Origin: Helianthus annuus
Lineage: Eukaryota > Streptophyta > Magnoliopsida > Asterales > Asteraceae
Reading direction: 5' to 3'
Assembly (NCBI RefSeq): GCF_002127325.2
Contig: NC_035441.2
Span: 50,658,663-50,722,662 of the forward strand
DNA: 64,000 nucleotides
Shown here in pieces: positions 5,068-41,515 of this stretch. A program made the position numbers and the translations under genes. Positions within the stretch are counted from its first letter, which is position 1, and each line of letters begins with the position of its first letter. The notes below the pieces were generated by a model. It was not told the origin of the DNA and searched no databases. It saw only the letters and a program-made list of their open reading frames with translations.

Positions 5068-5453
5068 ATACAAGTGTGAGTAGCCCTATTTTAGGTAAAT
5101 AGACTAACTATCAGCTCATTACCCCTTTAGGAATAAAAGTAAATCTAGCCTAAATTATCGCCCTTAAATCATGCTGAGTTTCCATATCCTCTACAACGTT
5201 CATCTCTGATTAAGCATATGCCAAAGTTGTAAAGACGAGTCCCTTGATTACGTTGCTAAGAGCGGATCCTGCTAGACATTCCTGCAAGATAACATTAAAT
5301 CCAATGAAAACAACTGTTAGCATGAGGATCCCTATGATGGTCCGTGATCCTGATCCTGGAACTCTTCTGAGGATCACTATCTGCCAAAGAAATAAGGATC
5401 ACTGATTAGGATCACATGTAAGGATCATATGTCATAAAAATCCAGCCCTAACA
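5068..5453 (-). repeat. Tat-F LTR remnant (5' LTR edge, minus strand)
   Basis: The sequence aligns with the right half of the Tat-C LTR (for example gaggatcactatctg and the end gccctaaca). It is cut on the left by the Tekay-1 LTR. At 5453 it ends with TAACA and is followed directly by gag-protease sequence, with no polypurine tract between. It is therefore an outer edge, that is, the 5' LTR of another minus-strand Tat element lying mostly outside the window. Confidence 0.75.
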
Positions 5454-7488
5454 GTTTCCTTAGCATGTCTTTTGGCTGCTGAAAAGGAAGTACCACAAAT
5501 GTCTGATCCTCCGGATATAGAGTTTATGACTTGTGCATCTGTTGGGGGAGCAGGAGCTTTTTCCGGGATCCTTTCAGGATCCTAGGTTCTTGACTTCTTT
5601 CGTCCCAAAAGTTCCTTTAAGTGCCCCTTGCTCAACAAGTAACCAATTTTATTCCTTAGTGCAATGCACTCTTCGGTGAGAAGCTCAAAATCCTCGTGAT
5701 ATACACACCATTTTGATTTGTCTTTCGTAGCAGCTGGTTTATCATTTTTTCTTGGCCACCTAGCTTTCTCACCTAAATTCTGCATTGCATGAATCAGTTC
5801 ATTGTTATCAACAGAAAAACAGTATTCAGAGATTGGAGGATAATCCTCATCATCCTCTTCTTGTTCTACTGCATGCACATTCAGAGATTGGAGGATCCTT
5901 GCTTTTCCTGTTTCGAGGATCCTGCTAGCCTCTCCTGGATCCTTTTGTCATCCTATAATCAGATGAACCTAAGGGCCCTGGTTCTTACTTCATCAAGATT
6001 CCTGCATGGTGTCATAACAAGATCATCATAGAATAATGAATCCCTAAGTAAACCCATTTTAAAGGCCTCTACAGCCGTAGCTATATCCAGGTTAGGGATA
6101 TCTAAGGATTCTTTACTAAACTTAGTGATGTAATCTCTAAGTGATTCATTTTGACCTTGTGTTACCCTATATAAATCACTAGTTAAGCGTTCAAATTTTT
6201 TACTACAAGAAAATTGATTATTAAACAGGTTAACTAGATTAGAAAATGAAGTAATAGAATAAGGGGGAAGACTTAGCAGCCATTTAAGAGCTGATCCTGT
6301 AAGTGTGGATCTGAAACCCTTGCATAAGCATGCTTCTTTTAACCTCTCAGGGATGGGGTTGATCTCCATCCTTTCTCTGTATTGAGCCACGTGTTCTTCA
6401 GGATCTGTTGAGCCATCATATAACTTCATGGTTGGTATCTGGAACCTTTTGGGTATCTCAGCATCCCAAATAGGTGATGCAAAACAAGATATCTTATGGC
6501 TCCCATCTGCAATTTCAGGAATGGGCTTAACCACCCCTGGAACACTGGATATCATATCCTTAAGCTTTTGTAACTCCCTAGCCATAGCTTGGTTGATACT
6601 TGTATCCTGTATAAGGCCATGGTTAGTGGTATAAGAATTATTGAAAGTTTTACCTCCCGGTGGATTCAAGTTCGGAATCCCAGATGTGAATCTGTATTGT
6701 CGAGATTCTGGTATAATTGAAGGACAAGGAGAAGCAATGGTTTGCATTGGGATGAAGTCTCCTTGATGGACATCTGAACCTCCAAGCTGCAAGCTTCTTA
6801 AGGATCCTTGATCCTGAGAAACATTGGATCCTTGATGCACTGTGAATGGGGGTATTGGAGGATAATCCATGGATCCAAAAACCTGGGAGGATCCTTGAGT
6901 TTGAAAGGAGGATCCTTGAACCTGAGAGGATCCTTGAACCTGAGAGGATCCTTAAACCTGAGAGGATCCTTGAACCTGCTGCGTCCCCATGTATCCTCCT
7001 GAGCTAGCGAAGGATCCTTGATGCTGAGAGAAGGATCCTGCTGGTTGAAAATTGGATCCTAGGGCCTGAGACGTTGCTGAGGATCCGTATTGCATTCCTC
7101 TTGTTCCACCCAAGTATTGGACATCTGGAGCAGCAGAATGCTGGGAGGTTATGACCGGAGTGTCGAAATTCAAAGATCTAGGCATCAATGGGGAATGATC
7201 CTCTGCTGATCTCTTCTGTTTCTTGATATCTCCAATTTCTCTGAGAATCTTTTCATTAGTCTTATCCTGCTGCTGTATGTGATCCTTCATCTTCAAAATT
7301 AAAGTAAAGAGGTCACTAGTAGTAGGAGTATAAGATGCAGAAGAAGTTGGAGGTTTTGAGAAAATAGGAGTCGGTCTCTTTTCAGCATTCTTCTGGGATC
7401 CAGAAGGTGGTGTAGACAAAGGTGGAACGCCCTGGGATGAATCGATTGCTGGCATTGCACTTGAAGTGGCTTTTCCTTGAGAAGCCAT
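5454..7488 (-). pseudogene. Tat-A gag and start of protease region, broken
   Basis: The ATG is at 7488. The N-terminal part is Ser/Gln/Pro-rich with short QVQGSS repeats and stops at 6952. The same frame reopens (6870-5959) with the capsid-like gag domain typical of Tat elements (KLYDGSTDPEEH, KWLLSLPP, NLFNNQFSCSKKFERL). Two more in-frame stops follow RFI near 5950 (TGA and TAG). Then come the nucleocapsid (5878-5582), where the CHHC-type knuckle reads CVYHEDFELLTEEC and has lost its second His, and the linker GGSDICGT near 5500. Three stops make it non-functional. Confidence 0.85.
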
Positions 7489-7553
7489 GCGGTTGAAGGT
7501 GATGAACTGAAATGAATGAAACGAGCAAAATTTTCAGAATTGAAGCACCAATT

Positions 7554-7571
7554 GCCCCACGGTGGGCACCA
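7554..7571 (-). other. Tat-A primer binding site (tRNA-Lys type)
   Basis: On the minus strand this reads TGGTGCCCACCGTGGGGC, three bases inside the LTR. From memory the 3' end of plant tRNA-Lys(CUU) is CCCCACGGTGGGCGCCA, which pairs with all but one position. The Tat-C copy (39540-39557) has a different single mismatch, so the family consensus is a perfect match. Confidence 0.75.
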
Positions 7572-7574
7572 AAT

Positions 7575-8266
7575 TGTTTTGGTCAAAAATCAAGCTAAGA
7601 TAATGCAACCAAATCTTTAGATGTGAGGTGTGATGCTTGAATCAATGAACAATGCTAAGGATAACAATCAAATATACGAGGAAAAAGCCCTTGATCAAGA
7701 GTTGATCTCCGGCATAAAAAACCTCGGGTGATGGAAACTACCGATCACCAACTCAGATTATACAGAAAATGTATTACAACTTTGGATGATAGTGAGCTTG
7801 TTACAAGGATCACTAGAGTGAAATGTGCAAAAAAGTGTGCAATCACCGAGCAAACAGTCGAGAGCTGATGAGAGCAGTTACGAGTGTGTGTGTTTAGCCA
7901 AAATTAGCCAAGTGTTCTAATCTAGCTCGCTATCCCCTTATAAATTTGGAAAATATCTAAGCTAACTAACTATCTGCATTTCATGCAAGTCTTCCACGAC
8001 CTCCATAACGTCCATATTAGTCAAGCACGTGTGGAATAAATAGGGAATATGCTTCAGGAATATCGCCAAGACCAAGTCCAAGCACGTACTCCTGCAAAAC
8101 AACTTCATATTTAAAGCAGATAATCGTTAGTGTAAGGATCACTATGATGATCCTGGATCCTGATCCTACAATACTCTTTGAGGATCACTAATTCAAACAG
8201 AATTGAGGATCCCTAAGCCCGACAGTAATTGAGGATCACTGATCTTTGGAGAATCCTCCCCTAAAA
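7575..8266 (-). repeat. Tat-A 5' LTR (about 692 bp)
   Basis: It aligns along its length with the 717-bp Tat-C LTRs. On the plus strand it starts TGTTTTGG and ends cctcccctaaaa, where Tat-C ends cctcccctaaca, so the terminal dinucleotide has mutated. A TATA-like box (minus strand TTTATAAGG, 7936-7944) is a likely core promoter. The primer site is on the left and Tat-D antisense-gene sequence on the right. Confidence 0.8.
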
Positions 8267-9699
8267 TCTCGTCATTGCCCTGACTTGTGTATTGAAGACC
8301 TTCCCATAGCATATAGATTGAGATCTCATGGCAATAGCCGTTTTCTCTTGTTCTCCACTTCCAAAAATCCTCTAATCCTTAAAGCCACCAAGAACGAAGA
8401 TCAGTGGCAATGAAAGTTCTTTTTCGTAAAAAGAGACTCCATCGACGGGGGTTTTGATCTGCCAGTTAGATGGCTAACCAAGGGTAGGATTTAGGGTTTT
8501 AGGAATATCCCCAAATATATCCTTAACTGTATTCTGATTGATATCCTAATATTTGTGCAGCGAATTTCAAAGACCTAGCATCCCCAAGTGCAGAATCACA
8601 ACCGAGGATCAAAGAGATTTACCGACTTCCTGGCGCTGAAAGAACTTTCTCCCTGTCTCTCACAAACTTAAGTCAGAAATCTAGTTCAGAAATGTCTAGT
8701 AAGTATACGTGAGTAAATTGACTATAGAATATAAATGAGATGAATTAAACACTTCTCCCTTGACACAGTGCCGGTCATCAACCTTGAAGGCTTCCAACTC
8801 GATGAGTTGGATAGTTATTACAGCCTTGCACCCATCAAACAAGAGATCAATCCAAAGCCAGCTGATACTCCAAAGCCCAGCAGCTCAAAGACTACTACCG
8901 CTCCCAAAGCTCCTCCAAGATTCAGGACCCGGCCTCCAGCTCCCGAAAGAGGAAGGAAGCAGATCATCCTACTACTCCCTATGTATTCCCATTTGAAAAT
9001 CATGGGTTCACGGATTCCAACAAATTCATGACAGGTTTCCTTAACCAGATTAGTATCCTGACCTATATCCTTCACCATATGCTAATTACAAATGTTAATT
9101 TAGGTTGATACCTGTTTCCTTACCTTGCAGGGCCTTGAACGCCTGGTATTCCTCTATGAGGACGCATGTGGCTTGAACGTCATGTTAGAGAGAAAACTGA
9201 AGAAGGCTGAGGCTACCATCGCAGATCAAGCAGCAATCGCCACCGCCAAATCGGAACACTATGAAGCCAAGTACAAGGCCATGACTCAAGACCACCAGTC
9301 TACCATCCAGAAGATCACCCAAGAGGCTCAAGCTAAGTCCGACACAGCCCAGGTTCAACATGAGCAAGATATGGCTTCGTACCGGGAGAGCCTTAAGAAT
9401 TCAGTTATTATCTCCCTCCTCCAGGCCAGACTGAAAATGTTTTACGAGGCTAGGGCTTTGGGCGTTGAATGCCCTTCATGGAATATCAAAGCCTGGGAGA
9501 TGAAATTGAAGGATCTTGGTGGCAACCCTGTGGAGCCCCCCTCAAAACCTGCTGTAGAGGAACCTGCTAAGGTGACCGAGAAGGTAGATGATGTGGTGCT
9601 ATAAAGGATGCTGGTGGTGATGCTTCTGATGAGGCTGGGATGAATGCTGGAGAGGATGCTCCTGGAGAGGACACGATGGAAGAGGGAGCTGCCCCCTAA
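8267..9699 (+). pseudogene. Tat-D antisense gene (plant gypsy-type 'transposon protein' family), 5'-truncated
   Basis: This runs opposite to gag-pol. The first 200 bp encode the end of the conserved domain (AYRLRSHGNSRFL, then FFFVKRDS and WLTKGR), interrupted by one stop. Two introns are clear: GTAGGATTTAG...GTGCAG (8484-8560) and GTAAGTATAC...ACACAG (8699-8768). A Pro/Ser/Lys-rich exon (8769-9000) follows, then after an acceptor at 9130 a coiled-coil exon rich in Ala, Glu and Lys (9131-9604). The acidic C-terminus (to TAA 9697-9699) is in a shifted frame. I recall the domain as Pfam PF04195; its function is unknown. The N-terminal half is missing because Tat-A inserted here. Confidence 0.75.
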
Positions 9700-9835
9700 G
9701 CGCAGCAATGTGGGGGATGATGGATGTATGTGCCAAGGCCGGAGCCCACTTTTTTAGAATTGGTTGTTGTGGTTCGTTTAAACAATTTACATTTCCTGTC
9801 TTTGAACAATTTATATTTCCTGCATTAGAACAATA

Positions 9836-9889
9836 TGATGACCAAAGGTGGATGGGTCCTGGGTTTCAGGATGAAGCCCTTGGTCATCA
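9836..9889 (+). other. Tat-D hairpin H1 (constant-loop family)
   Basis: Perfect 10-bp arms, TGATGACCAA (9836-9845) and TTGGTCATCA (9880-9889), enclose the shared loop text GGTGGATGGG...GATGAAGCC. An inner stem TCCTG/CAGGA closes a small GTTT-containing loop. It lies about 140 bp after the coding end of the antisense gene. Confidence 0.8.
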
Positions 9890-9914
9890 GTTAGTATAAT
9901 TTGTTTTGAATGAT

Positions 9915-9968
9915 GCAACGGTTGGAGGCGGATGGGTCTTGTTTTGAGATGAAACCTTTAACCGTTGC
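9915..9968 (+). other. Tat-D hairpin H2 (constant-loop family)
   Basis: The arms GCAACGGTTGGAGG (9915-9928) and CCTTTAACCGTTGC (9955-9968) form 14 pairs, two of them G-U on the plus strand. The loop again reads GGATGGG...GATGAAA, with an inner stem TCTT/GAGA. The arm sequence is unrelated to H1 and H3. Confidence 0.8.
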
Positions 9969-9989
9969 GTAAATATGGTAAAAACTAAC

Positions 9990-10037
9990 TGTGCTTTTGG
10001 TGGATGGGCCTCAGTTTGAGGTGAAACCAAAAGCACA
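9990..10037 (+). other. Tat-D hairpin H3 (constant-loop family)
   Basis: Perfect 12-bp arms, TGTGCTTTTGGT (9990-10001) and ACCAAAAGCACA (10026-10037), surround GGATGGG...GGTGAA, with an inner stem CCTCA/TGAGG. Confidence 0.8.
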
Positions 10038-11335
10038 ACTTTTGTTATGTTAATAATATCACCGTGTTTAGACTTATTTGTTGTCTCCTTTTAAATTTTT
10101 ACCATGCATTACTTAGTTTAGATTTTAGCTTTGTAAAATTGGTGTAATCATTTCTGTGAAGATATCTTGATCAATATACTCAGTGATATCCTACGCAGAC
10201 TTTTGTAAAATAGGACTTCTCAATATCTAAACAATTCAGACAAAGTTTCTCAAAATAGTTTATTTTTCTAAATCTCAACTAATTTAAATAAAGTTTTCAA
10301 AGTAAAAAGTTAATTTACTTAGAATTTATAAACAAATCTAATTCTGATTTTTAAATCCAAGTATCGTATCCCAAATGTTCCAACCAAATATCCTGAATCA
10401 TATCTCGAGAATTTATTTTGAGAATTTATCCTAAAGATATATCCTGATCAGGATACTTAAACTTTAAACATGGTTTCAAATGTTCAAACAAGTCATGTAA
10501 GATTCGCAAAGGAAAGATCATACCAGGAATATGGTGTAACCCTAGTACCGAACTTCAATCCTTCTTGCAACTCCTTCCACTAAGATGTCCCCAGTCTTAG
10601 TATACTAGGTTCAAATTTGATTCTTTGAGCCTTACATAGTCGTCTTAGGAGGAATGTCCCCTGTACATGAACACTTAGAAAATTTTTGAATATCAGTTCC
10701 AACTGTTTAGACAATTCTTGTGTTACAGGGATAAGACCCAAAAATATACTAGAGATAAATCCTTAGTATCTTGGGGAAAATCCCATAGGTATCCTGGGGA
10801 AAATCCCAAATTTTCATGCGCTACAAGCGGGGGTGTATAAACTCCAAGACTTAGAAAGGTGATAACCTTTAAACCTTAGAAAGTGTGAAAATACCCTTTC
10901 GTGAGAGAGGGTGATCAATCCTCATATACCTTTAGGATTCAGGATATAGCCAACAGTAACGAAATTGTCAGCCACTTTTACATGAACTGGTCCCACTACC
11001 TTGAACTATTCCCAAATAACTTGCGTTCCAGGCGGGGTGTTTAAACCCAACTCGGAAGAAAGGTGAATACCTTTAAATCTGTGAAGGGATCAGGATCCCT
11101 TAAACGTGAGAGAGGAGGCCAATCCTCTAATCTTTCGAAGTATCCTGAATGTATATCCCGGAGCTATATCCCGAAGCATATATTGCAAAACATCAGTAAA
11201 CTAAGGTGGGTGTTAGCCTGGCTAACACCCCTCCGATGCTTAAGTTAGTAATGGGTTCAAAACAATAAATAATATCAAAATTTAATAAAAGAGATAGAAT
11301 CCATACCATCCTGACTTAGAATTTAAATTCCGTAC
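10038..11335 (-). other. Tat-D noncoding spacer between integrase and antisense gene
   Basis: No credible ORF. It matches the Tat-B spacer at 40418-41350. It contains two copies, about 200 bp apart, of a module holding a gcg(c/t)tacaagcgggg-like core (near 10816 and 11021) next to text like aaccttt and gtgagagaggg. Tat-B carries the same pair near 40710 and 40915, and Tat-C one copy near 33372, so it is an old duplication. Words AGGATA and ATCCTG are frequent. Confidence 0.6.
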
Positions 11336-14300
11336 TCACTTGAAATAGAGTTTTAGATGTATAGCATTCCAGGCTCTTGGTAACATATCCCCCTCCATAT
11401 TCTTGAGTCGGTATGCTCCTTTTCCTGATTCTGATTCAACCTCGTAGGGTCCTTCCCATTTTGGAGCCAACTTTCCATCAGCAAGATTAGTAGTATTCTG
11501 AAAAGCCTTTCTCAATACCCAATCTCCAACTTGAAATCTTCTAGTCCTTATATTCTTGTTATATGCTTTAGATATTCTCTGTTGATATGCTGCCATCCTT
11601 AGCCTTGCCGCGTCTCTTGTTCATCAATAGTATCCAGTTCCTGGCATAGGATTCTAGGATTCTACTCAGGATCCCGGAGGTTGGATCTCGCTGTAGGTAT
11701 CACCATTTCTGTCGGGATCACCGCTTCTGCTCCAAACACCAAGGAAAACGGGGTTTGGCCAGTTGCACCTTTTACTGTCGTCCTGTCAGCCCACAAAACA
11801 AAGGGTAATTCTTCTGCCCATCTTCCTTTTTTAGCTCCCAATCTTTTTTTCAGGTTGTTGACAATTATCTTGTTTGGGGATTCTGCTTGTCCATTCGCTT
11901 GAGGATGTACTGGTGTGGATCATTTTGATTCCCCAACTCTTGCAGAAATCAGTAGTCCTCTTACTTATGAATTGAGATCCATTGTCACAAATTATTTTAG
12001 CTGGCACACCAAATCTAGTCAGTATATTCCTCTTTATGAAGGATACTACTTCCTGGTCTCTGACTTGAACAAATGCTTCAGCTTCAACCCACTTAGAGAA
12101 ATAATCAGTCATTGCTAGCATGAAGACTTTTCCTCCTGGAGCTTTTGGCAATTTTCCTACTATATCCATCCCCCATTTCATGAACGGACAAGGGGATACA
12201 ATAGGATATAATGGCTCTGCAGGCTGATGTAGTATGTTGCTGTGTCTTTGGCACGCATCACATTTTCGAGCATATTCTGCAACATCTTTTCTCATGGTAG
12301 GCCAATAATATCATGTTCTTAATACTTTTGAAAATAATGACCTGCCCCAGTGTGGTTACCACAATCCCCTTCGTGGATATCCTGAAGCACTTTTTTGGTC
12401 TCGGGATCCTCCAAGCACCTCAGATATGGACCTGCAAGAGATTTCTTGTATAAAATGTTATTTATAATAGTAAATCGTGATACCTTCATCCTAAAGGCCT
12501 TAGGATTCTCATCTTTGGGGATGTGCCCTTCCTTGAGATATCTTGTGATTGGAGTCGTCCAGGATCTAGGACCTTCTTAGGATACTCACCACCAGGATCC
12601 TGGACACTTACTACCTCCTTACCCTGAGGATCCGTCACAGGATACAGGATATATAATATTGGTATTTGGGTCCCTTCTGGTATCCTGACTGATGTCCTAG
12701 ATTTGCCAAGGCATCAGCTTCAGCATTGTCCTCTCTTGGTACCTGTTCAAGTGTAAAAACATCGAAATATCCTGCTAATTTTTTAACAATTTCAAGGTAC
12801 TCGATTAACTTCTCACCTTTAACTGTATAGGATCCATTAAAATGATTAGTGATTAACAAGCAGTCAACATATATTGGCAAATTCTTAATACTCATATTCT
12901 TAGCCAATTCTAATCCTGCAATTAAAGCTTCATATTCTACTTCATTATTAGTGGCAGGTAACTCACATCTGATAGCCTGGGGTAATATGTCCCCCTGTGA
13001 CGATTTTAGTAGTATACCTAAACCTACACCTCTTACATTAGATGCACCATCAGTATATAAAGTCCAGGATTCTAAGTTTTCTCCTAGCTGCTGTACTTCT
13101 AGGTCTACTTCATTTTGAATATCACTACTGAAATCAGCCACAAAGTCTGCTAGAGCCTGAGACTTAATAGCATTTCTAGGTTCATATACTAGATCAAAGG
13201 CACTTAATTTTACTGACCATTTAGCCATCCTACCTGACATTTCGGGTTTCCTAAGCACATTTTTAACAGGATAATTAGTTTTAAGATAAATCTTATGTGT
13301 TTCAAAATAATGTCTAAGTTTCGTCGATGCCATAACTAGGGCTAATATTAACTTTTCTAGGTGAGAATACCTAGTTTCAGCATCTAATAAACTTTTACTA
13401 ACATAATAAACAGGATACCGCTGACCTTCATGATCCTTTACCATGACAGCACTTACTGCATTCCCTGATACTGCAAGATATAGGGATAATGGTTTGCCAT
13501 CCTCAGGCTTCAGCAATAAGGGTGCGGTTGAAAGATACTGCTTCAAATCCTGCAATTCGAACTTCTTATTCTTCTTGAGGATATCATAAAATTCCTTGCA
13601 CTTTTCCGAGGATCTTGAAATAAATCTGTTCAATGGTGCTACTCGCCCCGTTAGTCGTTGAACATCCTTCATGTTTGAAGGTGACTTGATATCTAAGATG
13701 GCTTTGATCTGTTTTGGGCTTGCTTCAATCCCTCTTTTAGTCACCATATATCCTAGAAACTTTCCTACCCCAACTCCGAAATGGCACTTAGCAGGATTTA
13801 GCTTCATGTTATACTGATCCAGGATATCAAATGCCCCTTTAATATCCGGGAGATGATCCTCCGCCTTCTTGGATTTGACTACCATATCGTCAATGTACAC
13901 CTCCATGGTGTCCACCAGTTTGTCTTTAAACATCATGTTCACCAATCTCTGGTACGTCGCACCTGCATTTTCAAATCAAAAGGCATAGCAGTATAACAGT
14001 AAATAGTTGTTGGTGTCATGAAAGCAGTATCCTCCTGGTCTGAAGGTTCCATTTGGATCTGTCGAAATCCTAAGGATGCATCCATGAAGATTAACATCTC
14101 ATGACCGGCAGTGGCATCCACCATTAAGTCAATATGAGGCAGAGGGAATGGGTCTTTAGGACATGCTTTGTTCACGTCTGTGTAATCTACATAAACTCTC
14201 CATTTCCCATTCTTCTTTTGAACCACAACCACATTTGCTAGCCACTTGGGAAATTTGACTTCAAAGGATCATCTTGGACTTCAATAGTCTTTCAACCTCT

Positions 14301-15281: not shown

Positions 15282-16874
15282 TTATTCTTCTTTTTTTCCC
15301 AGAAGATCCTTCAGATATCCTTTGCTTAAGAGATAACTTATTTCTTTCCTCAGGGCAATGCAATCCTTAGTAACATGTCCGAAATCCTCATGGAAGGCAC
15401 ACCATTTGGACTTATCCTTCCAATCAGCTTTTTGTTGATTCTTCCGAGGCCACCTGGCTTTGTCTCCTAAACCCTGCATAGCATACATCAGTTCAGGTAT
15501 ATTAACAGAAAAACAGTATTCGGATAATTCAGGATACTCCTCAGGACCCTCATCTTCAACAGCATTCACTTTCTTGTTGTAATTTCGGCCATATGGCTTT
15601 GAGCGATATGGTTTATACGAGGATTCTGATTTCCTGTTGGTTGACTCGTAGGTTGTGGACGAATTCATTCTCTCTTGAATCTTTTTGTCATCCTCCAGCC
15701 GAATGTATCTCAATGCCCTGTTACAAGCTTCATCCAGATTCCTGCTGGGATTCATTACAAGATCCTGGTAAAATTGGGAATCCTTCTGCAATCCCATCTT
15801 GGAATCCTGCACAACTGTTGCAACATCGAGGTGCGGGATATCTAAGGATTCCCAGCTAAACTTATTCACATAATCCCTCAAGTATTCCTGAGGTCCTTGA
15901 GTTATCCTGTAAAGGTCACTGGTTAGTTTCTCAAAACTCCGGCTGCAAGAAAACTGACTATTAAATAAATTAACCAAATGAGCAAACGATGTAATTGAGT
16001 GAGGAGGAACATTTAACAGCCATTTTAAGGCTGATCTTGTCAAGGTAGAACTAAAACCCTTGCACAAGCATGCTTCCTTGAGATCTAGAGGGATAGGATT
16101 AATTTCCATCCTTTCCCTATATTGGGCGATATGCTCCTCAGGATCCGTAGTTCCGTCATAAAGTTTCATATTAGGGGTTTGAAATCTTTTTGGGATTTCA
16201 GCATCATAAATGGGATATGCAAACCGCGATATCCAGTACAGCATACAATCATTAGGACATGCATCAATTTTATCATAACTAAGTCCTAATTCTCCTATTA
16301 TCTTCCTTAGGTCATACAATGACTTCGGTATGGAAGCATATGGGAAGGCTTCCCTCAATGTATCAAGCATCATGCTGAAACCCTTGTCATTACATTTCCC
16401 AATACACTTACTATGAAATAGTCTAATGATAAAAGAAAGAACCGAGAACTTCTTACACCCAGGATATAGTTCTTTCTTTGCATCTTCTAACGCTTTATAA
16501 AACTTTTTTACATTTGTGTTTGGTATACTTTGACTTTCATTTTGTGTCCCTATTTCATTTTCATGTATGTTCTCACCAAACCCGTTGAATGCATCATGCA
16601 CCAACCCTTGCATGTCATCTTCAGCATCCAACATAGGGGTTTCACATGATTCGGAAATAAAAGGTGCAATTCTGTAGCCTTTAATAAACCCGACACATTG
16701 GAGATGCGTTCTAGCCTCCTCCCGATTAACCCATATTTGATTACTGCAATCAATGCATGGACATGATATTTGACCATTTTTACCCTCGGTAGAAAAGATA
16801 AAATCAAGAAATTTGTCAAGACCGTTTTCATATTCAGTAGTAGCTCTTGGTAAAGACATCCAACTCGTATCCAT
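15282..16874 (-). CDS. Chimeric 530-codon ORF: CACTA transposase N-terminus fused to Tat gag
   Basis: One uninterrupted frame joins two unrelated parts. Residues 1 to about 213 are the start of a CACTA TNPD-type transposase: MDTSWMSLPR, the CPCIDCSN motif of the transposase-associated domain, then FHSKCIGKCNDKGFS and ACPNDCMLYW of the transposase proper. From about residue 214 (ISRFAYPIYDAEIPKRFQ) it is Tat-D gag, with the capsid-like domain (KLYDGTTDPEEH) and the CHHC knuckle CAFHEDFGHVTKDC near the C-terminus. The breakpoint is near 16235 and no LTR is present there. It may be an accidental fusion; expression is unknown. The Tat gag N-terminal third and the CACTA catalytic part are both missing. 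Confidence 0.8.
   Translation of the reverse strand: MDTSWMSLPRATTEYENGLDKFLDFIFSTEGKNGQISCPCIDCSNQIWVNREEARTHLQCVGFIKGYRIAPFISESCETPMLDAEDDMQGLVHDAFNGFGENIHENEIGTQNESQSIPNTNVKKFYKALEDAKKELYPGCKKFSVLSFIIRLFHSKCIGKCNDKGFSMMLDTLREAFPYASIPKSLYDLRKIIGELGLSYDKIDACPNDCMLYWISRFAYPIYDAEIPKRFQTPNMKLYDGTTDPEEHIAQYRERMEINPIPLDLKEACLCKGFSSTLTRSALKWLLNVPPHSITSFAHLVNLFNSQFSCSRSFEKLTSDLYRITQGPQEYLRDYVNKFSWESLDIPHLDVATVVQDSKMGLQKDSQFYQDLVMNPSRNLDEACNRALRYIRLEDDKKIQERMNSSTTYESTNRKSESSYKPYRSKPYGRNYNKKVNAVEDEGPEEYPELSEYCFSVNIPELMYAMQGLGDKARWPRKNQQKADWKDKSKWCAFHEDFGHVTKDCIALRKEISYLLSKGYLKDLLGKKEE
16236..16874 (-). mobile_element. CACTA TNPD transposase fragment
   Basis: Only the first ~640 coding bases of the transposase remain, up to CMLYW, where the Tat-D gag joins. 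No terminus belonging to it is recognised in the following 2 kb. It reads away from the TNPA-like gene at 24159-26969 and probably belongs to a different element. Confidence 0.75.
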
Positions 16875-28042: not shown

Positions 28043-29695
28043 AGACCTAGAAGTACAACAACTAGGAGAAACCTCAGGATCTTGGACATTATATAATGAT
28101 GGTGCGTCCAATGTAAGAGGTGTAGGATTAGGTATACTACTAAAATCGCCATAGGGAGACATATTACCCCATGCCATTAGATGTGAATTTCCTGCTACTA
28201 ATAATGATGTAGAATACGAAGCTCTGATTGCAGGATTAGAACTGGCTAGGAATATGAATATTAAGAGTTTGCAAGTATATGTTGATTCTTTGTTAATCAC
28301 TAACCATTTTAATGGATCCTATGCAGTCAAAGGTGAAAGGTGAATTGAATATCTTGAAATCGTCAAAAAATTAGCAGGATATTTCGAAGTTTTTACACTT
28401 GAACAGGTACCAAGAGAGGATAATGCTGAGGCAGATGCTCTGGCTAATTTAGGATCTACAGTCAGAATACCGGAAGGAACTCAAATACCAATACTACATA
28501 TCTTGTATCCTGCGATGGAGCTCTTCAAGTCTCAGGATAAGGAGGTAGCAAGTATCCAGGATCCTGGAGATGAGTATCCTGAGGAGGATCCTAAATCCTG
28601 GATGGCCCCGATCATGAAATATCTCAAAGAAGGGCACATCCCAGAGGATGAAAATCCTAAGGCTTTCAGAATGAAGGTATCTCGTTTCACTATTATAAAT
28701 AATGTTTTGTATAAGAAGTCTCTTGCAGGACCATACCTAAGATGCTTGGAGGATCCTGAAACCAAGGAGGTACTTCAGGATATACATGAAGGAGACTGTG
28801 GCAACCATACTTGGGCCAGATCATTGTTTTCGAAGGTACTAAGAAGAGGGTACTATTGGCCGACTATGAGGAAAGATGCTGCAGAATATGCTCGAAGATG
28901 TGATACGTGTCAAAGGCACAGTAATATACTACATCAGCCTGCTGAGCCACTATATCCTATTGTTTCCCCTTGGCCATTCATGAAATGGGGTATGGATATA
29001 GTGGGAAAATTGCCAAAAGCTCCAGGAGGAAAAGTTTTTATGCTGGCAATGACAGACTATTTCTCCAAATAGGTTGAATCTGAAGCCTTTGTTCAAGTCA
29101 GAGATCAAGAAGTAGTATTTTTCATTAAAAAAAATATCCTGGCTAGGTTTGGGGACCAGCTGCGATAATTTGTGATAATGGCTCTCAGTTTATCAGCAAG
29201 AGAACTACTGATTTTTGCAAAAGTTGGGGGATCAAGATGATTACATCAACTCTAGTACATCCTTAAGCGAATGGACAGGCAGAATCCTCAAACAAGATAA
29301 TTGTCAACAATTTGAAGAAAAGACTATATGCTAAAAAAGGAAGATGGGCAGAGGAGCTACCATTTTTCCTATGGGCTGATAGGACGACAGTGAAGAGTGC
29401 AACTGGTCAGACCCCGTTTTCTTTAGTGTTTGGGGCAGAAGTCGTGATCCCAATGGAAATGGTGATAGCTACAGCTAGATCAAGCCTCAGGAAACCTAAG
29501 TCAAATCCTAAAGCCTTGTGTCAAGAGTTGGATATTGTTGATGAGACAAAAGATGCAGCAAAGCTAAGGATGATAGCATATCAACAGAAGATATCTAGAG
29601 CATATAACAACAATCTAAGGACTAGAAGGTTTCAAGTTGGAGATTGGGTGTTAAGGAAGGCTTTTCAGAATACTACTAATCCTGCTGATGGGAAG
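28043..29695 (+). pseudogene. Tat-B second RNase H and integrase, 5' part
   Basis: The frame enters at DLEVQQLG, at the start of the archaeal-type RNase H, and continues through NHFNGSY. Integrase begins near 28503 with the zinc domain (CDTCQRH at about residue 133 of that frame) and core ([15 protein letters not shown]). TAG at 29070-29072 replaces the Trp codon after FSK. The sequence continues with frameshifts to 29312-29695 ([38 protein letters not shown]), where Tat-C is inserted. Confidence 0.85.
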
Positions 29696-30412
29696 TGTTT
29701 TGGTAAAAAATCACACAAGGATAATGCAACCAAACTCCTAGTTACGGGGAATGATGCTTGCAATGAAGAACAATAATAAGGATCACTTCGATGTAAATTG
29801 CACAAATGACACAAGGATTTATACGAGGAAAAAGCCCTTGATCAATGAATGATCTCCGGCATAAAAAACCTCGGGTGATGGAAACTACCGATCACCAAGT
29901 TCAAATAAATCAATAAAAGTTTACAACTTCGGATAGTGACGAGCTAAGTACAAGGATCACTATGGTTAATCGTGTAAAAGTGTGAGAATTGTTAAGTGTC
30001 TGTTGAGAGCTTTGAGACTGCAATTGCACGAGAGTGTGTGTGTAACCGAAAATGGCTAAGTGTTCTAAATTTAGCTCGTCACCCCTTTAAAAATGAAAGC
30101 TAACTAAGCTAACTAACTGTCCGACTTTTGTGCCATGCTCCCACGTTCTCCACAACGTCCATTTCTATTCAAATGTGTGCGAAATACCCGTGGAATATTC
30201 CATAATAACGTTTCCAAGACCAAGTCAAGCTCAATACTCCTTCAAAACAATACGAAACACAAACAGCCAATCGTTAGTATGAGGATCCTTAGGGTGATCC
30301 ATGATCCTGATCCTGAAGCTCTTCTGAGGATCACTATCTGTCACAGAAGTAAGGATCACTTATTAGGATAGCAAATAAGGATCACTAATTGTTAGAAAAT
30401 CCTCCCCTAACA
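29696..30412 (-). repeat. Tat-C 3' LTR
   Basis: 717 bp, TGTTTTGG...CCCTAACA on the plus strand. A purine tract (minus strand TTTTGGGGGCAAT) lies just outside the right edge, marking it as the 3' LTR of a minus-strand element. Confidence 0.92.
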
Positions 30413-30529
30413 ATTGCCCCCAAAATATAAGGAGTAAAATGTAAAATTAACGAGTTATGTTTTCTTGATCTTATCTGCAACAAACTCAACGGATATATAG
30501 CCATTGATATCGAACTATCCGTTGCATTA

Positions 30530-30574
30530 TGACGTCACAGAAGTGACACCCCTGCAGAATCATCATTATAAATA
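30530..30574 (+). promoter_or_regulatory. Predicted promoter of the Tat-C antisense gene
   Basis: A palindromic TGACGTCA (30530-30537), a classic bZIP-binding site, is followed 30 bp later by TATAAATA (30567-30574). The ATG is 135 bp further on, after a pyrimidine-rich leader. Tat-B has the same arrangement in its own antisense orientation (TGACGTGA, then CTATAAAC). Promoter activity is inferred. Confidence 0.6.
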
Positions 30575-30708
30575 GGAGATATGGATATGATCGTATGCAT
30601 TTAAATTCCAGAGTTACTCCCTTTATAACTGCATTCCGAAGATAAACAGGTATTCATCTTCTTCCTTTCTTTGCTCTGTTTTCCTCCCCTTTCAATTATT
30701 CTACCAAA

Positions 30709-32306
30709 ATGTTGCTCCGAAACTCCCCTTCCAAGGATCACACGAAGAACAGCCCGCTAAAAAGCCAAGGAATCATTGAAGATTCCATAAAAGAACGATG
30801 TTGCTTCTCCGATCCACAAATCGATAGGATCCGCTACTGCTTCCCGGCAAACACGGTGTTCAAATCCTTTGATCCCAACGCCCTCAGCGATCACATTTCT
30901 GATAACTGGGTTGGGTTTCCTGTTACCCCGTTCACCATAGGTTACACATATCCCTTTCCAGCTTTCACCCAATCCTTCTTTTCCCTGACCGGCATATCTT
31001 ACATCCAAGCCATGCCGATGATCTGGAGGGTTTTATATACCCTTGAAAGGATCATCGAGCAGGAGGGGATAGATTTAGGCATGGCTGAGTTGGGAGAACT
31101 GTATGATCTTACCACCTTTGGTTCCCATCGTTATCTGTTCAAACGAAAACCTGGGGAGGAGCATCCGATCTTCAAGGCTACCAAAAACGATACCAACTGG
31201 AAGCGGCGCTTCTTTTTTGTCATGAGAGATTCTATCCCTGATGGGAAGGATCTATCCAAGAAGTGGGCTACCCATGGTAGGATGGAGGATCCTGAGAAGG
31301 ATCACCAGAGAACTTTATAATATGAGGATCACTGATATTGTTTTGTTTTCTTGTTGTGCAGCTATCTCTGTTTCACATCTCAGATTGACTCCTGCTGCTA
31401 AAGAGAGACTCTCTGCCTTCAAGAGACTTGACCCTGAAACAAGAACTTTCAAGACTACCACCCAAGATTCTCAGGAAGTATCCTCTGGTTCTGTCACGAT
31501 GTCAAGTAAGTATCCTTGCTTAATAATTCAAATAAATAATGAAATATAAGTGAAATTAAGATACTTATCTTGTTTTGGTTGTGTAGGTGCTGGAAAATCC
31601 ACCAAGTCTGCTTCAAAGTTCAGCGTCACCAATCTCACCACCGTTAGATCCTCCAAGAGAAAAGCTCCTACCAGCCCGTCAACTTCGATCCCCAAGGTAC
31701 CCCTCAAAGGAAAGGGAGGCAAGAAGAGAAAGGCCTCCGAAGCTGAGGATCTGCAAGGTCTCCCCTTGATCCGCCAACAATTCCTCGATTACTTCAATGA
31801 GGTAAGGATCACCATCCCTGCTCCTATATCCTGCTGATATGAGGATCATTTGGTTCTAACCTTATCCTTTGTCCTTTTTGGAGAAATTTGCTGAAATTGA
31901 GACCTATGTTGGCCACGTTGAGGATCAGGATAGCAAGATTGCTGATCTTCAACAGGTTGCAGTGCTGAAGGACCTCAAAATAGCTGATCTTCAAAAGGAT
32001 CTCCAGAACGCCAGAAACGAAACGGCCAAGGTGTTGATCAACTTTGACTATGAGAGGCACAAGATCACCGAAGATGCCAAGGTCTCCGCCGCCATAGCAA
32101 TGTACAAGACCAAGCTGCCAATGGCCCTAGAAGCTTAGGATCCTGCTTTTGACAAGAGCACCTGGGATGTGGAGGGCTGGAAGGCAAGGCTGGCTGAACT
32201 GGAGGATGAAGAAGAGGCTGAAGAGATCCTGACCATTGAGGCTGGAGGCAAGGGTGAAGGTGGTGAAGCAAGTGGAGCCGGAGGTGGTGATGCAGCGAAG
32301 GTCTAG
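30709..32306 (+). CDS. Tat-C antisense gene, four exons, about 449 codons, one premature stop
   Basis: The exon model is 30709-31276, 31362-31505, 31587-31801, 31884-32306. All junctions are GT-AG and the frame is kept across each. Residues 20-190 form the conserved domain of plant gypsy-type 'transposon proteins' (RIRYCFPANTVFKSF, FFSLTGISYIQAMPMIWRVL, RFFFVMRDSIPDGKDL). The middle is Ser/Lys-rich with a basic run KGKGGKKRKA. Exon 4 is a coiled-coil (KIADLQKDLQNA) ending in a Gly/Glu-rich tail and TAG at 32304. A single in-frame TAG at 32136-32138 would shorten the product by about 56 residues. The gene lies opposite to gag-pol. Its biochemical role is unknown. Confidence 0.7.
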
Positions 32307-32466
32307 GCTGCAGGATTGGGCAATGATGGAAATTTCGAGACTTAGCCGGAGCCCAATTTTTTAAATTTGGTAGTGTTTTTTTTTATGGTTGGTTTGTTAA
32401 ACAATGATGGTCTGTACTCTTGAATAATAGCTTTACGTTTAAGGATCAAGGATCCTTCAGACAATA

Positions 32467-32528
32467 GGCAGGATTGCAAATGGTGGAGGGATCCTCTGTT
32501 TGGGGGATGAAACCATTGTGATCCTGCC
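32467..32528 (+). other. Tat-C hairpin Ha (constant-loop family)
   Basis: Arms GGCAGGAT...AATGGT (32467-32484) and ACCATT...ATCCTGCC (32512-32528) pair at 14 positions around a small internal loop. The loop text GGTGGAGGG...GATGAAACC and inner stem ATCCTC/GGGGGAT (one U-G pair on the plus strand) match the Tat-D hairpins. Confidence 0.7.
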
Positions 32529-32575
32529 GCCTTTATGTTCCTGCACAACTTCAAACCTATTATCATGGACACCCT

Positions 32576-32630
32576 TTACCTACCCCAGCGGACGGGCCAC
32601 GTATTGCTAGTAGATGCTTGGGGTAGGTAA
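32576..32630 (+). other. Tat-C hairpin Hb
   Basis: Perfect 12-bp arms TTACCTACCCCA (32576-32587) and TGGGGTAGGTAA (32619-32630). The loop starts GCGGACGGGCC, like the GTGGATGGGTC of the family, but its remainder is diverged and no clear inner stem is seen. Confidence 0.6.
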
Positions 32631-33669
32631 TTTTGACAACCTTTAAGGGTTAGTCTTTTTGTTAATAAATAAAATCCTAATCTTTTGTCGCTTATCTTGT
32701 GTTGTTATCCTTTTAGTTCCTTTGATTCTCAATTGTTTCGGTATACACTTATTAAATCAGCAGTTTTAAGTAAGTCAGATTGAAAACATTTAGGATATGA
32801 TCCTTGATCAAATATCCTATAGTTGAAAAATCCCAAAAAGTAGTATACATTTTAGGATTACAAGATTAGTTGTCAAATTTCAAGGGTTACTCAAAGAAAA
32901 AATGAATAGAATTAAAAACAATTAAGGATCATACCTGAGGATCCATGTTAGGATCCTAACCCTTAGTACTATAATCAGGATAATTACGAGATAAACCTTA
33001 GAGATAAATAAGGATCAAGGGTCCTTAGTTGTTTAACTCCAAGGACCTGAAATAGAGCACAACTTGGGACTAAGCCAATATAAGATAAGAATTAGCAACT
33101 GGGGACAAGCCCAAGGATAACTGGGGACAAGCCCAAGGATAACTGGGGACAAGCCCAAGGGTCGTGTGTAAACTGGAGTATGGCCCTAACTGGCGACTAT
33201 CCAAACTTAGTGACATGAAAATGCCAAAACCTTAGCTAACGTGAAAACGTTAGAAACCTTAGGAACGGATGTATGGTACGTCTACCATTATACGTAGGAT
33301 CCTAGGTATAGCCAGTACAATGGAATTATCAGCCCCTAAAGCGAGTACTGGTCCCAATGCCTTGAACTATACCAGGATCATCATGCGCTACAGGCGGAAC
33401 TGGGGTCAAGCCCAAATAACTGGGTTAAACCCAAGGATCTGGATTGCTTCTGTAGATAATCAACATTATGCTAAGAATACCTGAACTTTCAAAACTCAGA
33501 ATCATGTGAGAGATGGATAAAGGACACATGATCCTTATCCTTATATGAGAAAATAAGGAAATGAAATAGTTCAAGATTAGGACATTACCAGAGTAAGGAT
33601 CATTAATGCTTTAAGGATCCTTCAAGGATACCCCTAATGTAAGGATCATATGTGCCAGGAGGATCCTGC
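32631..33669. other. Tat-C noncoding spacer
   Basis: No gene. It includes three tandem 22-bp copies at 33097-33162 (core CTGGGGACAAGCCCAAGG) and further single copies of related words (aactggggtcaagccc at about 33400), plus one copy of the catgcgctacaggcgg module found twice in Tat-B and Tat-D. Confidence 0.6.
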
Positions 33670-36600
33670 TCACATGAAATATTTCTTCAAATGGACAGCA
33701 TTCCAAGCTCTTGGTAACAAATCACCTTCCATGGTCAGCAATCTATATGCCCCCTTTCCTACTTCAGCTTCAATCAAATAAGGGTCTTCCCATTTTGGCG
33801 CCAATTTTCCATCAGCAGGATTGGTGGTATTCTGAAATGCTTTCCTTAATACCATATCACCAATCTGAAATTTCCTGATCCTAACATTTTTGTTGTAAGC
33901 ACCAGCCATTCTTTGTTGATAACTAGCCATCCTTATCCTAGCCAGATCCCTGATTTCCTCAATAGTATCCAGGTCTTGAGCCAGGTTCTCATCATTTTCC
34001 TCAGGATCACGGGTACTCGTTCTAGCAGTTGGAACTACCATTTCTGTTGGGATCACTGATTCTGCCCCAAATACCAAAGAAAATGGTGTTTGACCAGTAG
34101 CATTCTTAGGGGTTGTCCTATCAGCCCAAAGCACATAAGGTAATTCTTCTGCCCATTTCCCTTTCGTGGATCCAAGCTTCTTCTTCAAATTGTTGATAAT
34201 GATCTTGTTGGATGATTCTGCTTGACCATTAGCTTGTGGGTGGACTGGTGTTGATGTTATCATCTTAATCCCCCAGTTGTCACAAAAGTTAGTGGTTCTG
34301 CCCCCCAATAAATTGGGAACCATTATCACATATAATTTCAGAAGGAATACCAAATCTAGTTATAATATTTCTTTTAATGAAGGATATAACTTCCTTTTCT
34401 CCGACTTGGGCAAAAGCTTTAGCCTCTATCCACTTAGAGAAGTAATCAGTCATAGCAAGCATGAACACTTTCCCACCAGGTGCCTTAGGGAGCTTACCAA
34501 CTATATCCATCCCCCATCTCATAAATGGCCAAGAGGAGGATATAGGATGTAGAAATTCAGCCGGATGATGAAGGATATTGCTGTGTCTCTGACAAGGATC
34601 ACACTTTTTAGCATACTCCACAGCATCCCTTTTCTTAGTTGGCCAGTAGCATCCTGTTTTTAGGATCCTTGAGAACAATGCCCTGCCCCCAGTGTGGTTT
34701 CCAAAATCTCCTTCATGGAAGTCTTTTAAAACTTCTTGGATTTCAGGATCCTCAATGCATCTTAAATATGGTCCTGCAAGAGATCGCTTATACAACATAT
34801 TATTTAAGATTGTGAATTGAGATACCTTAATTTTGAAAGCCCTAGGATTTTCTCCCATAGGAATCTCTCCGTGTTGTAAGTATCTCATGATTGGTGAGAT
34901 CCATGATCCTGATCCTGGATGAGATTGAGTATCCTCACTAGGGATAATTGCAGAATCCTCCCCTATTTCCATGGCTACATGATCCTTGATGGCAGGAGCC
35001 AAGACATGGATAATGGGGATACTTATATCCTCCGGGATCTTCAAAGATGATCCTAAGTTAGCCAATGCATCAGCTTCTGTATTTTCTTCCCTTGGTACGT
35101 GTGTCAAACTAAAGGAAACAAAAGAGAGTGCCAATTCTTTGACTATCTCTAAATATTTGGTTAGCTTTTCACCTTTAACAATATAGGATCCATTAAAATG
35201 ATTTGTAATTAATAATGAATCTACATGTACCTCAACGTACCTGATCCCCATATGCTTAGCAATTTGTAAACCACCAATCAAGGCTTCATATTCAGCCTCA
35301 TTGTTAGTGGTTTGGAACTCACAAGCTATGGAGTGGGGTATTATGTCCCCCTGTGGCGATTTTAGTAGTATACCAAGCCCTGTGCCTTTGACGTTTGAGG
35401 ATCCATCAGTATAGAGTATCCAAGGATCCTTGGTCTCTTCTAGCTGCTGGACTTCTAACTCAGTTTCTTTTTGTAAATCACTACTGAAATCAGCAACAAA
35501 GTCGGCCAATGCTTGGGATTTGATGGCTGTCCTGGGCTCATATCTTATATCATAGGCACTAAGCTTCACTGCCCACTTAGCCATCCTTCCTGACATCTCT
35601 GGTTTCCTGAGGACATTTGCTTTTGAGGATACTGCAAGATATAAGGATAACACATCTCCTTTCTCTGGTTTCATCAAGGCTGGGGCTGAGGATAGGTAAT
35701 CTTTGAGAGCTCGTAAAGCACTCTCATGCTTCTCAGTCCACTCAAATTTCTTGTTCTTCCTTAGGATATCATAGAATTCTTTGCACTTTTCGGAGGATTT
35801 AGATATAAATCTGTTCAAAGCTGCTATCCTGCCTGTTAGTCTTTGGACATCCTTAGCATTGGCAGGAGATTTGATATTCACTAAGGCTTTGATTTGTTCC
35901 GGGCTAGCTTCAATGCCTCTCTTGGTCACCATGTATCCTAAGAACTTACCTACTTTAACACCAAAGTGACATTTTGAAGGATTAAGTTTCATGTTATATC
36001 TGTTAAGGATATCAAATGCTTCCTCCAAGTCCCTTAGGTGATCCTCAGCTTTTATGGATTTTACCACCATATCGTCTATGTAAACCTCCATTGTTTGTCC
36101 AATCTGATCCTTGAACATCATATTCACCAGCCTTTGATATGTGGCACCTGCATTCCTTAATCCAAACGGCATAGAAATATAACAATATATACCGGTTGGA
36201 GTCATAAAAGCCGTATCCTCTTGATCAGATGGTTCCATCTGAATTTGTTGAAATCCAGATGAAGCATCCATAAAAGTCAACAATTCATGACCCGCCGTTG
36301 CATCCACCATGGAGTCAATGTGGGGTAATGGGAAAGGATCCTTGGGACATGCCTTATTTAAATCTGTAAAATCGACACATACCCTCCACTTTCCATTTTT
36401 CTTTTGAACAACAACCACATTGGCCAACCATCTTGGATATTTGACCTCTCTAATCATACCTGTCCGGAGCAATTTCTCTACCTCTTCCTGGATAATGGCA
36501 TTTCTTTCCGGTGCAAACTTCCTCCTTTTTTGATGGATCGGTTTGAATGACCTGTCAATGCCAAGTTTATGAGTTATAATATCCTTAGATATACCTGTCA

Positions 36601-36760
36601 TATCCTCATGCTTCCATGCAAAAGTAGTCATTCTTCTTTTGAGGAAGGATACAAGATCTTCTTTCATTTTGCCAAGGATCCCTGATCCGATATAGATTTT
36701 GGATTCAGGATCATCAGGATCCATGAGGATTTCTACCACATCCTGCTCTCTTGCCTCCAA
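33670..36760 (-). pseudogene. Tat-C pol: RT, deleted RNase H, second RNase H, integrase; one frameshift
   Basis: The long frame 36760-34289 (823 codons) carries RT (FRLR-type finger KWRVCVDFTDLNKACPKD, FMDASSGFQQIQ, catalytic YIDDMVV). It passes directly from LYLAVSS to NVLRKPEMSGRMAKW, so about 70 residues of the first RNase H present in Tat-D are missing in frame (near 35620). The second RNase H is whole (WILYTDGSSN, NNEAEYEALIGGLQ, VDSLLITNHFNGSY). Integrase zinc and core motifs follow (CDPCQRH, CDNGSQF). A frameshift near 34300 leads into 34353-33670, holding the catalytic Glu region ([12 protein letters not shown]) and the C-terminus ending LKKYFM. Confidence 0.88.
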
Positions 36761-36816
36761 GACATCCCTTGGAGGATACTTTGATTGCTATTACTCCCTT
36801 GATTTTAAGGCTAGTT

Positions 36817-39473: not shown

Positions 39474-39539
39474 ATATTCATATGCAATGAACCGGAATGA
39501 TCACCAACAGAAAACTTTCTTAGAAATGAAGCACCAATT

Positions 39540-39557
39540 GCCCCATGGTGGGCGCCA
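39540..39557 (-). other. Tat-C primer binding site (tRNA-Lys type)
   Basis: The minus strand reads TGGCGCCCACCATGGGGC, three bases inside the 5' LTR. It matches the remembered plant tRNA-Lys(CUU) 3' end except for one G-to-A at a CpG. Confidence 0.78.
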
Positions 39558-39560
39558 AAC

Positions 39561-40277: not shown

Positions 40278-40417
40278 GGAAGCTTGCCCCAAAATGGGAA
40301 GGACCTTACGAAGTTGAATCAGAATCTGGAAAAGGAGCATACCGACTCAAGAATATGGAAGGGGATATGTTACCAAGATCCTGGAATGCCATACACCTTA
40401 AGCTCTATTTCAAGTGA
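40278..40417 (+). pseudogene. Tat-B integrase C-terminus, resumed after Tat-C
   Basis: After the duplicated GGAAG the frame continues LAPKWEGPYEVE, GKGAYRLKNMEGDM and ends LKLYFK with TGA at 40415-40417. Tat-D carries the same C-terminus at 11596-11336. Confidence 0.88.
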
Positions 40418-41350: not shown

Positions 41351-41515
41351 TGTGACACTTTGGGTTTTCCCGAGCAACCTTCTTGTATTAGCAATGTGTA
41401 CGTATGAATTATTAAATGAAAGATGTGAATTATCTGTATATGCTATGTGTTGCTGATAACGTGTATGTAATAAATATATATATAAGTGTATAAATACTAG
41501 TGGGCCGAGACCATT

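Follow-up and report, generated by a model that had tools for sequence, protein, structure and literature searches.

The 3' UTR of transferrin receptor mRNA contains a row of hairpins, the iron-responsive elements (IREs), whose loop letters are constant and whose stems vary; a protein reads the constant part. Each IRE has a CAGUGN loop and a bulged C. Among retroelement RNAs, the CTE and RRE have repeated or purine-rich internal loops. The CTE of MPMV and the RRE of HIV are structured cis-acting RNAs that act in genomic RNA (PMC4829213, PMC4488727). LINEs, which are non-LTR elements, also carry a conserved 3' UTR stem-loop, and it is recognized by their own reverse transcriptase (PMC5135761). 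The plant element Evade carries ENE stem-loops close to its poly(A) end, in the spacer that separates its coding region from the 3' LTR. Their U-rich internal loop, which G-C pairs flank, pairs with the poly(A) tail and so protects the RNA (PMC12501189). Retand elements are characterized by antisense genes, whose function is not known, and a survey of Retand/Tat elements reports antisense open reading frames (ORFs) and tandem arrays in the region between POL and the 3' LTR (PMC11963269); the locus described here lies in that region of an element of that kind.

We analysed a 64,000-nucleotide window of the Helianthus annuus genome (contig NC_035441.2, positions 50,658,663 to 50,722,662, forward strand). 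An initial annotation of this window had proposed three consecutive hairpins at positions 9836 to 10037, with unrelated stems and a shared loop. Sequence reading and RNA folding established that the three hairpins exist and fold as claimed, within a retrotransposon that we call E1:

9836 to 9889, plus strand: hairpin E1H1, with a 10-bp outer stem, an A.C mismatch, GGU/GCC and the loop GGAUGG/GAA
9913 to 9970, plus strand: hairpin E1H2, with a 16-pair outer stem that includes 3 G.U pairs
9990 to 10037, plus strand: hairpin E1H3, with a 12-bp outer stem and the internal loop GGAUGG/GAA

E1H1 has an inner stem of 6 pairs and the apical loop GGUUU. E1H2 has the internal loop (C)GGAUGG/GAA(A), an inner stem and the apical loop GUUUU, and E1H3 has an inner stem and an (A)GUUU apical loop. 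The initial annotation had thus counted the first and third stems correctly (10 and 12 bp), but had given 14 bp for a middle stem that has 16 pairs with wobbles. The loop text that it took to be common to all three is exact for GGATGGG...TGAA, but hairpin 2 reads GCGGATGGG and hairpin 3 reads GGTGAA. The inner stem that it described is there, and the apical loops, which it had given as GTTT, are actually GGUUU, GUUUU or AGUUU. Its main contrast, between unrelated stems and conserved loops, was sound: over 11 variable outer pairs the E1 paralogues are 20% identical (13 of 66 letter comparisons), against 100% in the internal loop (18/18 and 9/9).

Folded singly, E1H1, E1H2 and E1H3 gave z-scores of −3.8, −5.7 and −5.3, and the 216 nt from 9830 to 10045 (plus strand) folded at −82.8 kcal/mol (z = −6.9, 200 shuffles). 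In 2,000 dinucleotide shuffles of 9501 to 10300, one perfect 10-bp inverted repeat was found in 23, two in 1 and three in 0, counting Watson-Crick-only arms with the same spacing and at least 3 G or C per arm. The real sequence has two inverted repeats under this rule, the middle hairpin depending on wobbles.

The hairpins belong to retrotransposons. Pfam searches and self-comparison of the window identified LTR retrotransposons whose gag and pol are of the Ty3 type: the pol ORF of the element E2 contains RVT_1, RVT_3, Integrase_H2C2 and rve, and E1 has RT/RNase H and Retrotrans_gag. Among the best 120 of 6789 pol relatives, the named organisms were all flowering plants but one labelled Escherichia coli. 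The host elements are Tat/Retand-like LTR retrotransposons; the lineage name itself is one that we presume from structure. Three of them carry the hairpins:

Minus strand: element E1, with gag at 15282 to 16874, pol at about 11335 to 13945 and the antisense ORF and hairpins at about 8740 to 10057
29696 to 40277, minus strand: element E2, with LTRs 97.9% identical and a 5-bp direct repeat, GGAAG, at its ends
28043 to 29696 and 40280 to 40975, plus strand: pol pieces of element E3, 84 to 86% identical to E1

Given its nearly identical LTRs and the GGAAG repeat, E2 is a young insertion in the older pol region of E3. E2 and another LTR element, at 41346 to 51147, break up E3, which is thus older than either. 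That the E3 pieces form one element is our reading of their order, strand and identity. The element at 41346 to 51147 has 2.45-kb LTRs that are 97% identical, a reverse transcriptase and a Tf2-1-like SH3 domain, and it interrupts E3 some 80 bases away from the hairpins.

An inverted-repeat search and sequence reading confirmed the count of eight hairpins that had been given for the window: three in E1, two in E2 and three in E3. The five outside E1 are as follows:

32467 to 32528, plus strand: hairpin E2H1, with a 13-pair outer stem (2 G.U), a bulge, then 4 pairs, and the loop GGAGGG/GAA
32576 to 32630, plus strand: hairpin E2H2, with an intact 13-pair outer stem and GGACGG present
51378 to 51431, minus strand: hairpin E3H1, orthologue of E1H1
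51301 to 51353, minus strand: hairpin E3H2, orthologous to E1H2; an outer-stem G-C pair is exchanged for A-U
51225 to 51278, minus strand: hairpin E3H3, orthologous to E1H3; an outer-stem G-C pair is exchanged for A-U

The mid-stem A.C mismatch of E1H1 (9846/9879) is also kept in E3H1 (alignment pair 15-49). Most of the inner stem and the apical loop of E2H2 are gone. The common design of the unit is an outer stem, GGY/RCC, an internal loop with GGANGG on its 5' side and GAA on its 3' side, then a G.U, A.C or A-U pair, 4 to 5 further inner pairs and a GUUU-type apical loop. GGANGG is present in all eight hairpins and GAA in six; in seven, the letters of the inner stem covary and the apical loop is of the GUUU type. 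Each hairpin folded alone gave a z-score between −3.5 and −7.0, and seven of the eight are nearly equal in energy (−24.7 to −26.3 kcal/mol). Between paralogues within an element, the 11 variable outer pairs are 18 to 20% identical and the internal loop 78 to 100%.

To find the hairpins by model we built two covariance models. The model from all eight (R1) recovers its eight at E values of 4e-11 or lower, and its next match (E = 0.028) is the opposite strand of one of the same places. Since R1 recovers its own eight by construction, the fair test is the model built from the three hairpins of E1 alone (R2). R2 found four of the five E2 and E3 hairpins, at E values of 1e-12 to 8e-6, and missed only the damaged E2H2 (E = 0.33). 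On background loci (150 of 190 loci, 1.33 Mb, with L081 to L120 left out) the best R1 score was 19.3 bits, against 48 to 68 bits for the eight hairpins. Two core-pattern scans of viral contigs gave at least 120 and 52 matches, none of them with a stem paired like those of E1 and E3. Measured as standard pairs among 14 outer positions in a fixed register, these chance matches reached at most 11, one in each scan, against 12 to 14 for the six E1 and E3 hairpins. The E2 hairpins score just 9 (E2H1) and 8 (E2H2) on this count because a bulge or shift breaks the fixed register; both have a 13-pair stem once a register shift is permitted. We rejected a count of unbroken pairing outward from the core as an unfair measure: the chance matches have runs of up to 8, and E1H1, E1H2 and E3H1 themselves have 3, 0 and 3, cut short by the A.C mismatch in E1H1 and E3H1 and by a C.A at the core in E1H2. 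Integrase and pol protein searches of the viral contigs gave no match, and neither did a search of the translated hairpin stretch against proteins. A search with a 22-row pol alignment found 18 loci in prokaryote genome contigs, at 27 to 36% identity, on which the hairpin model had one match only (in L190, E = 6.5). One of the loci, a 4.7-kb contig named Streptomyces clavifer (BMWJ01000029.1, our L173), encodes a pol of retrotransposon type that shares 36% identity with the query; this is probably contamination.

The initial annotation had read the pattern of constant loops and diverged but paired stems as a selected RNA fold. The strongest evidence on this point comes from the E1 and E3 orthologues, which differ by 24 stem substitutions, all transitions, and in which 56 of 60 pairs are still standard. 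When the 24 substitutions were placed at random among like stem letters, 49.3 of 60 pairs were expected to remain, and 0 and 1 of 20,000 simulations (two runs) did as well as the real sequences. In the reverse direction 14 of 20,000 did so. The outer stems alone gave 36 and 149 of 20,000, the inner stems alone were weak (1199 and 929), and leaving out the two outermost pairs gave 6. Taken hairpin by hairpin, the counts were 9914 for H1, 94 for H2 and 549 for H3; H1 alone is uninformative because it has only 3 substitutions, and the signal is carried only by H2 and H3. Seven pairs changed on both sides between E1 and E3, as four Watson-Crick exchanges and three G.U/A.C exchanges of like geometry. 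Four Watson-Crick exchanges are unremarkable by themselves, being reached in 1925 of 20,000 simulations. The spacers between the hairpins are 57% identical between E1 and E3 (21/37), and the hairpins 71 to 91%.

Counts over all eight hairpins pointed the same way in a sample of eight hairpins, three elements and one genome. Standard pairs filled 85.6% of the 160 cells of the eight-row alignment; shuffles gave 63.6%, none of 500 reaching the real value, and sliding the partner gave 31 to 49%. Both sides had changed in 16 of 20 pairs (3 of 500 shuffles as high), and there were 33 further pair types (16 of 500 as high). We give the orthologue test more weight than this count because unrelated stems partly just restate that each is a hairpin. 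Tandem duplication, which had been argued to be insufficient by itself, was dropped as the full explanation: alone it would not keep the cores, lose the stem letters and leave the pairs. Because R2 finds the hairpins of other elements and the orthologues keep their pairs, the fold was most likely selected, as judged from the sequence comparisons, rather than left as a tandem-repeat relic; the energies on the strand of the antisense gene, given below, favour the same reading.

Paired stems could also arise without selection. Retroelements undergo template-switching copying, and if such switching during reverse transcription or replication copied one arm onto the other, stems would drift yet stay palindromic, yielding perfect stems unrelated to each other. 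We think this very unlikely. Such copying makes perfect DNA palindromes, yet 14 G.U and 8 A.C cells persist in the six E1 and E3 hairpins, the A.C mismatch of H1 is common to both elements, and the conserved, non-complementary internal loop would be left unexplained. A role in small-RNA silencing, with the hairpins serving as Dicer substrates that feed it or as decoys that block it, seems to us highly improbable. Plant elements with inverted repeats can be diced, but these stems have only 10 to 17 pairs, with an internal loop interrupting them, which is short for a Dicer substrate. Small-RNA sources also tend to conserve their stem letters; here the stems differ while the loop stays, and no Rfam microRNA family reaches threshold.

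All eight hairpins are more stable as RNA of the antisense-gene strand than of the gag-pol strand, by between 0.3 (E3H2) and 12 (E2H1) kcal/mol. Of ten one-sided changes, seven stay paired through G.U on the antisense-gene strand, and the other three all lie within the two outermost pairs. R1 scored 48 to 68 bits on this strand against 9 to 17 bits for the seven opposite-strand places that reach an E value of 10, a gap that favours the antisense-gene strand by construction because the model was built on it. When pairs are judged by the rule of the gag-pol strand, the orthologues pass as well (54 and 52 of 60 standard, with 1 and 10 of 20,000 simulations as good), so the strand call rests on the energies. 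The hairpins likely act as RNA of the antisense-gene strand.

The array might instead act near the 3' end of the genomic, gag-pol-strand RNA as a packaging, export or dimer signal. The opposite strand does fold (z = −8.3), its pairing rule survives the orthologue test, and retroviral RNA export elements exist (PMC4829213). Still, the stability of all eight hairpins, if by just 0.3 kcal/mol in E3H2, and the seven one-sided changes that keep G.U both point to the antisense-gene strand, with only the outermost two pairs behaving otherwise, and we hold a genomic role to be distinctly unlikely. DNA cruciforms bound by integrase or host proteins are a reading that we find barely credible: the stems are possible on both DNA strands and A.C cells are not rare (8 beside 14 G.U), but the RNA energies are biased to one strand in all eight hairpins.

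On the antisense-gene strand, the array lies between an ORF and a poly(A)-signal-like block:

9104 to 9699, plus strand: 3' part of the E1 antisense ORF; the frame matching E3 stops at 9697 to 9699
10052 to 10057, plus strand: AATAAT, poly(A)-signal-like, 14 nt past E1H3
30709 to 32306, plus strand: E2 antisense gene region, first ORF 30709 to 31317, stop of the last ORF 32304 to 32306
32664 to 32673, plus strand: two overlapping AATAAA, 33 nt past E2H2
51560 to 52130, minus strand: 3' part of the E3 antisense ORF, in more than one frame; stop 51560 to 51562, 128 nt before E3H1
51207 to 51212, minus strand: AATAAT, 12 nt past E3H3

In E1 the open frame of 9104 to 9601 stops earlier, at 9602 to 9604, 231 nt ahead of the array. 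The stop at 9697 to 9699, 136 nt upstream of E1H1, is in a frame different from that of the open ORF. Antisense ORFs are present in E1, E2 and E3, and that of E2 was shown to lie between pol and the 3' LTR; the E1 ORF likely has the same position, and for E3 no 3' LTR was located. The first antisense ORF of E2 is 94% identical (over 91%) to an annotated Helianthus annuus protein, and among its 113 listed relatives those named by organism are all from Helianthus, one from Tagetes excepted. The Pfam domain Transposase_28 (PF04195) had no match in four antisense ORF pieces or in 33 alignment rows (the E2 ORF and 32 relatives). Two sunflower Retand clusters are likewise without Transposase_28 (PMC11963269). 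The label of Tat antisense gene in the initial annotation is thus backed by position and by the relation to annotated sunflower proteins, but not by a Pfam match to Transposase_28. The AlphaFold model of the antisense protein was too poor for a fold search (mean pLDDT, 58.9).

In all three elements the array starts 128 to 160 nt past an antisense stop (in E1, the stop of the second frame) and ends 12 to 33 nt ahead of AATAAT or AATAAA, within a stretch that is alignable across the three. A stop upstream and these motifs downstream in every case uphold the proposed placement, and by position the array would lie in the 3' UTR of the antisense gene. A further AATAAT stands upstream of the E2 hairpins, at 32423. 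We also saw an extra conserved stem just past the antisense stop, at 9710 to 9749 (plus strand), 32315 to 32357 (plus strand) and 51510 to 51549 (minus strand). It reads GTGGG(C)...(G)CCCAC, with a two-sided change to TTGGGC...GCCCAA in E2, and TTTTTT follows. Tested alone against shuffles, 4 of 200 were as good as this stem in E3 and 191 of 200 in E1; in E2 the fold was computed with the 5' arm cut off.

Placed here, the array could act through structure per se: as a compact module at the 3' end it would keep two convergent genes apart or influence poly(A)-site use and RNA decay, with no dedicated binder. It stands directly ahead of AATAAT or AATAAA in all three elements, the energies of seven hairpins are nearly equal, and structured 3' UTRs change mRNA accumulation in plants, lowering mRNA levels (PMC10885604). 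This account leaves unexplained, however, why an internal loop is kept almost letter for letter amid differing stems and why GGANGG is present in all eight hairpins, and we judge it unlikely.

A free outer stem, a drifting but paired inner stem and a near-fixed GGANGG/GAA loop are what is expected at a protein-read site. We give an even chance to the proposal that the antisense mRNA carries the array in its 3' UTR as a cis-acting, multivalent set of protein-binding hairpins, which sets the fate of the transcript. The fold is well supported, and from it we infer the binder and the effect. A putative protein would bind each core, with the stems as a scaffold: the outer stem may merely keep the core rigid, and the part being read would be the purine-rich internal loop together with the apical loop. 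That the cores come in twos or threes points to cooperative binding. Once bound, the array would determine how the 3' end of the antisense mRNA is formed, how stable this mRNA is or whether it is exported; since the array adjoins the poly(A)-signal-like block, 3'-end choice, stability or export would be its natural outputs. It would operate in the manner of IRE arrays or retroviral transport elements, without being one of them. Candidate binders are the antisense protein itself, Gag or a host protein. A bolder form of the proposal, which we regard as distinctly doubtful, is that the hairpins form a new family of plant retrotransposon RNA whose GGANGG/GAA cores are jointly read by an element-encoded regulator, as a counterpart of Rev/RRE-type control. 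The antisense protein, with its lysine-rich and coiled-coil-like parts, would then bind its own mRNA, and the GG runs of the core might join neighbouring hairpins directly.

The array resembles several of the known systems, and the GGANGG/GAA loop fits none of the ENE, the export elements or the IRE arrays. Like the ENE of Evade, the hairpins are stem-loops with an internal loop, in the spacer between coding region and 3' LTR and near a poly(A) end (PMC12501189). They differ in that the internal loop is GGANGG/GAA and not U-rich, and in that they come as two or three, probably on the antisense-gene strand. The array is, like the CTE and RRE, a structured cis-acting retroelement RNA, but those act in genomic RNA, and the sunflower fold favours the antisense strand (PMC4829213, PMC4488727). 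It shares with the LINEs a conserved stem-loop in the 3' UTR of a retroelement (PMC5135761), in this case an LTR element. With the IRE array it shares the row of 3' UTR hairpins with constant loop letters and variable stems; by eye, the apical loop is GUUU-type instead, and the IRE bulge is absent. Among other motifs, a kink-turn has tandem sheared G.A pairs, with GA on both strands after a 3-nt bulge, and SECIS has AUGA; by eye, GGANGG opposite GAA has no GA after a 3-nt bulge and no AUGA. The hammerhead ribozyme has a three-way core (CUGANGA...GAAA...UH), whereas each unit here has two helices, with no Rfam match.

Rfam 15 gave 0 matches at curated scores in the whole window, and over 9780 to 10100 there were four weak matches, the lowest at E = 0.67 and 15 bits. 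The literature searched, a partial coverage with most subscription journals outside it, held no description of such an element, in agreement with the initial annotation, whose author knew of none. The main text of the Retand survey contains none of the terms stem-loop, secondary structure, inverted repeat and RNA structure (PMC11963269). The accessible text of a survey of plant structured RNAs has no word starting with "transpos" (PMC12218528), and that of a paper on active sunflower retrotransposons has no hairpin, stem-loop or antisense (PMC11728184). This comparison suggests a cis-acting structured retroelement RNA with its own core, a docking site so far undescribed.

Three other motifs were considered and rejected. 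Four short-spaced GG runs, as in a G-quadruplex, occur at two of three E1 hairpins and one of three E3 hairpins; since they are absent from several hairpins, and since the E2 matches lie upstream of the hairpins, a G-quadruplex is not a shared feature. A PUF site, UGUANAUA, was found in E3 only. A pseudoknot between the loop and the 3' strand (GUUU with GAAAC) was dropped by eye because no linker remains to cross the inner stem.

A selected RNA array on the antisense gene would mean that its transcript is made and is controlled post-transcriptionally, and it would be an addition to the structured RNAs of plant LTR retrotransposons, of which few are known. The array offers a marker for strand-specific RNA-seq and a short RNA bait for finding the putative binding protein.

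Three further features of the window concern the retrotransposons and their surroundings. The gag ORF of E1 (15282 to 16874, minus strand) starts with a Transpos_assoc domain (PF13963, E = 3.9e-17), followed by Retrotrans_gag; we know of no such pairing in one gag. A gag and LTR of a further Tat-like element lie at 5453 to 8264, with 76% identity to the gag-LTR part of E2; this element adjoins E1, and the LTR is apparently common to both. The stretch from 62020 to 63700 is dense in large inverted and direct repeats, of up to 890 bases at 94% identity.
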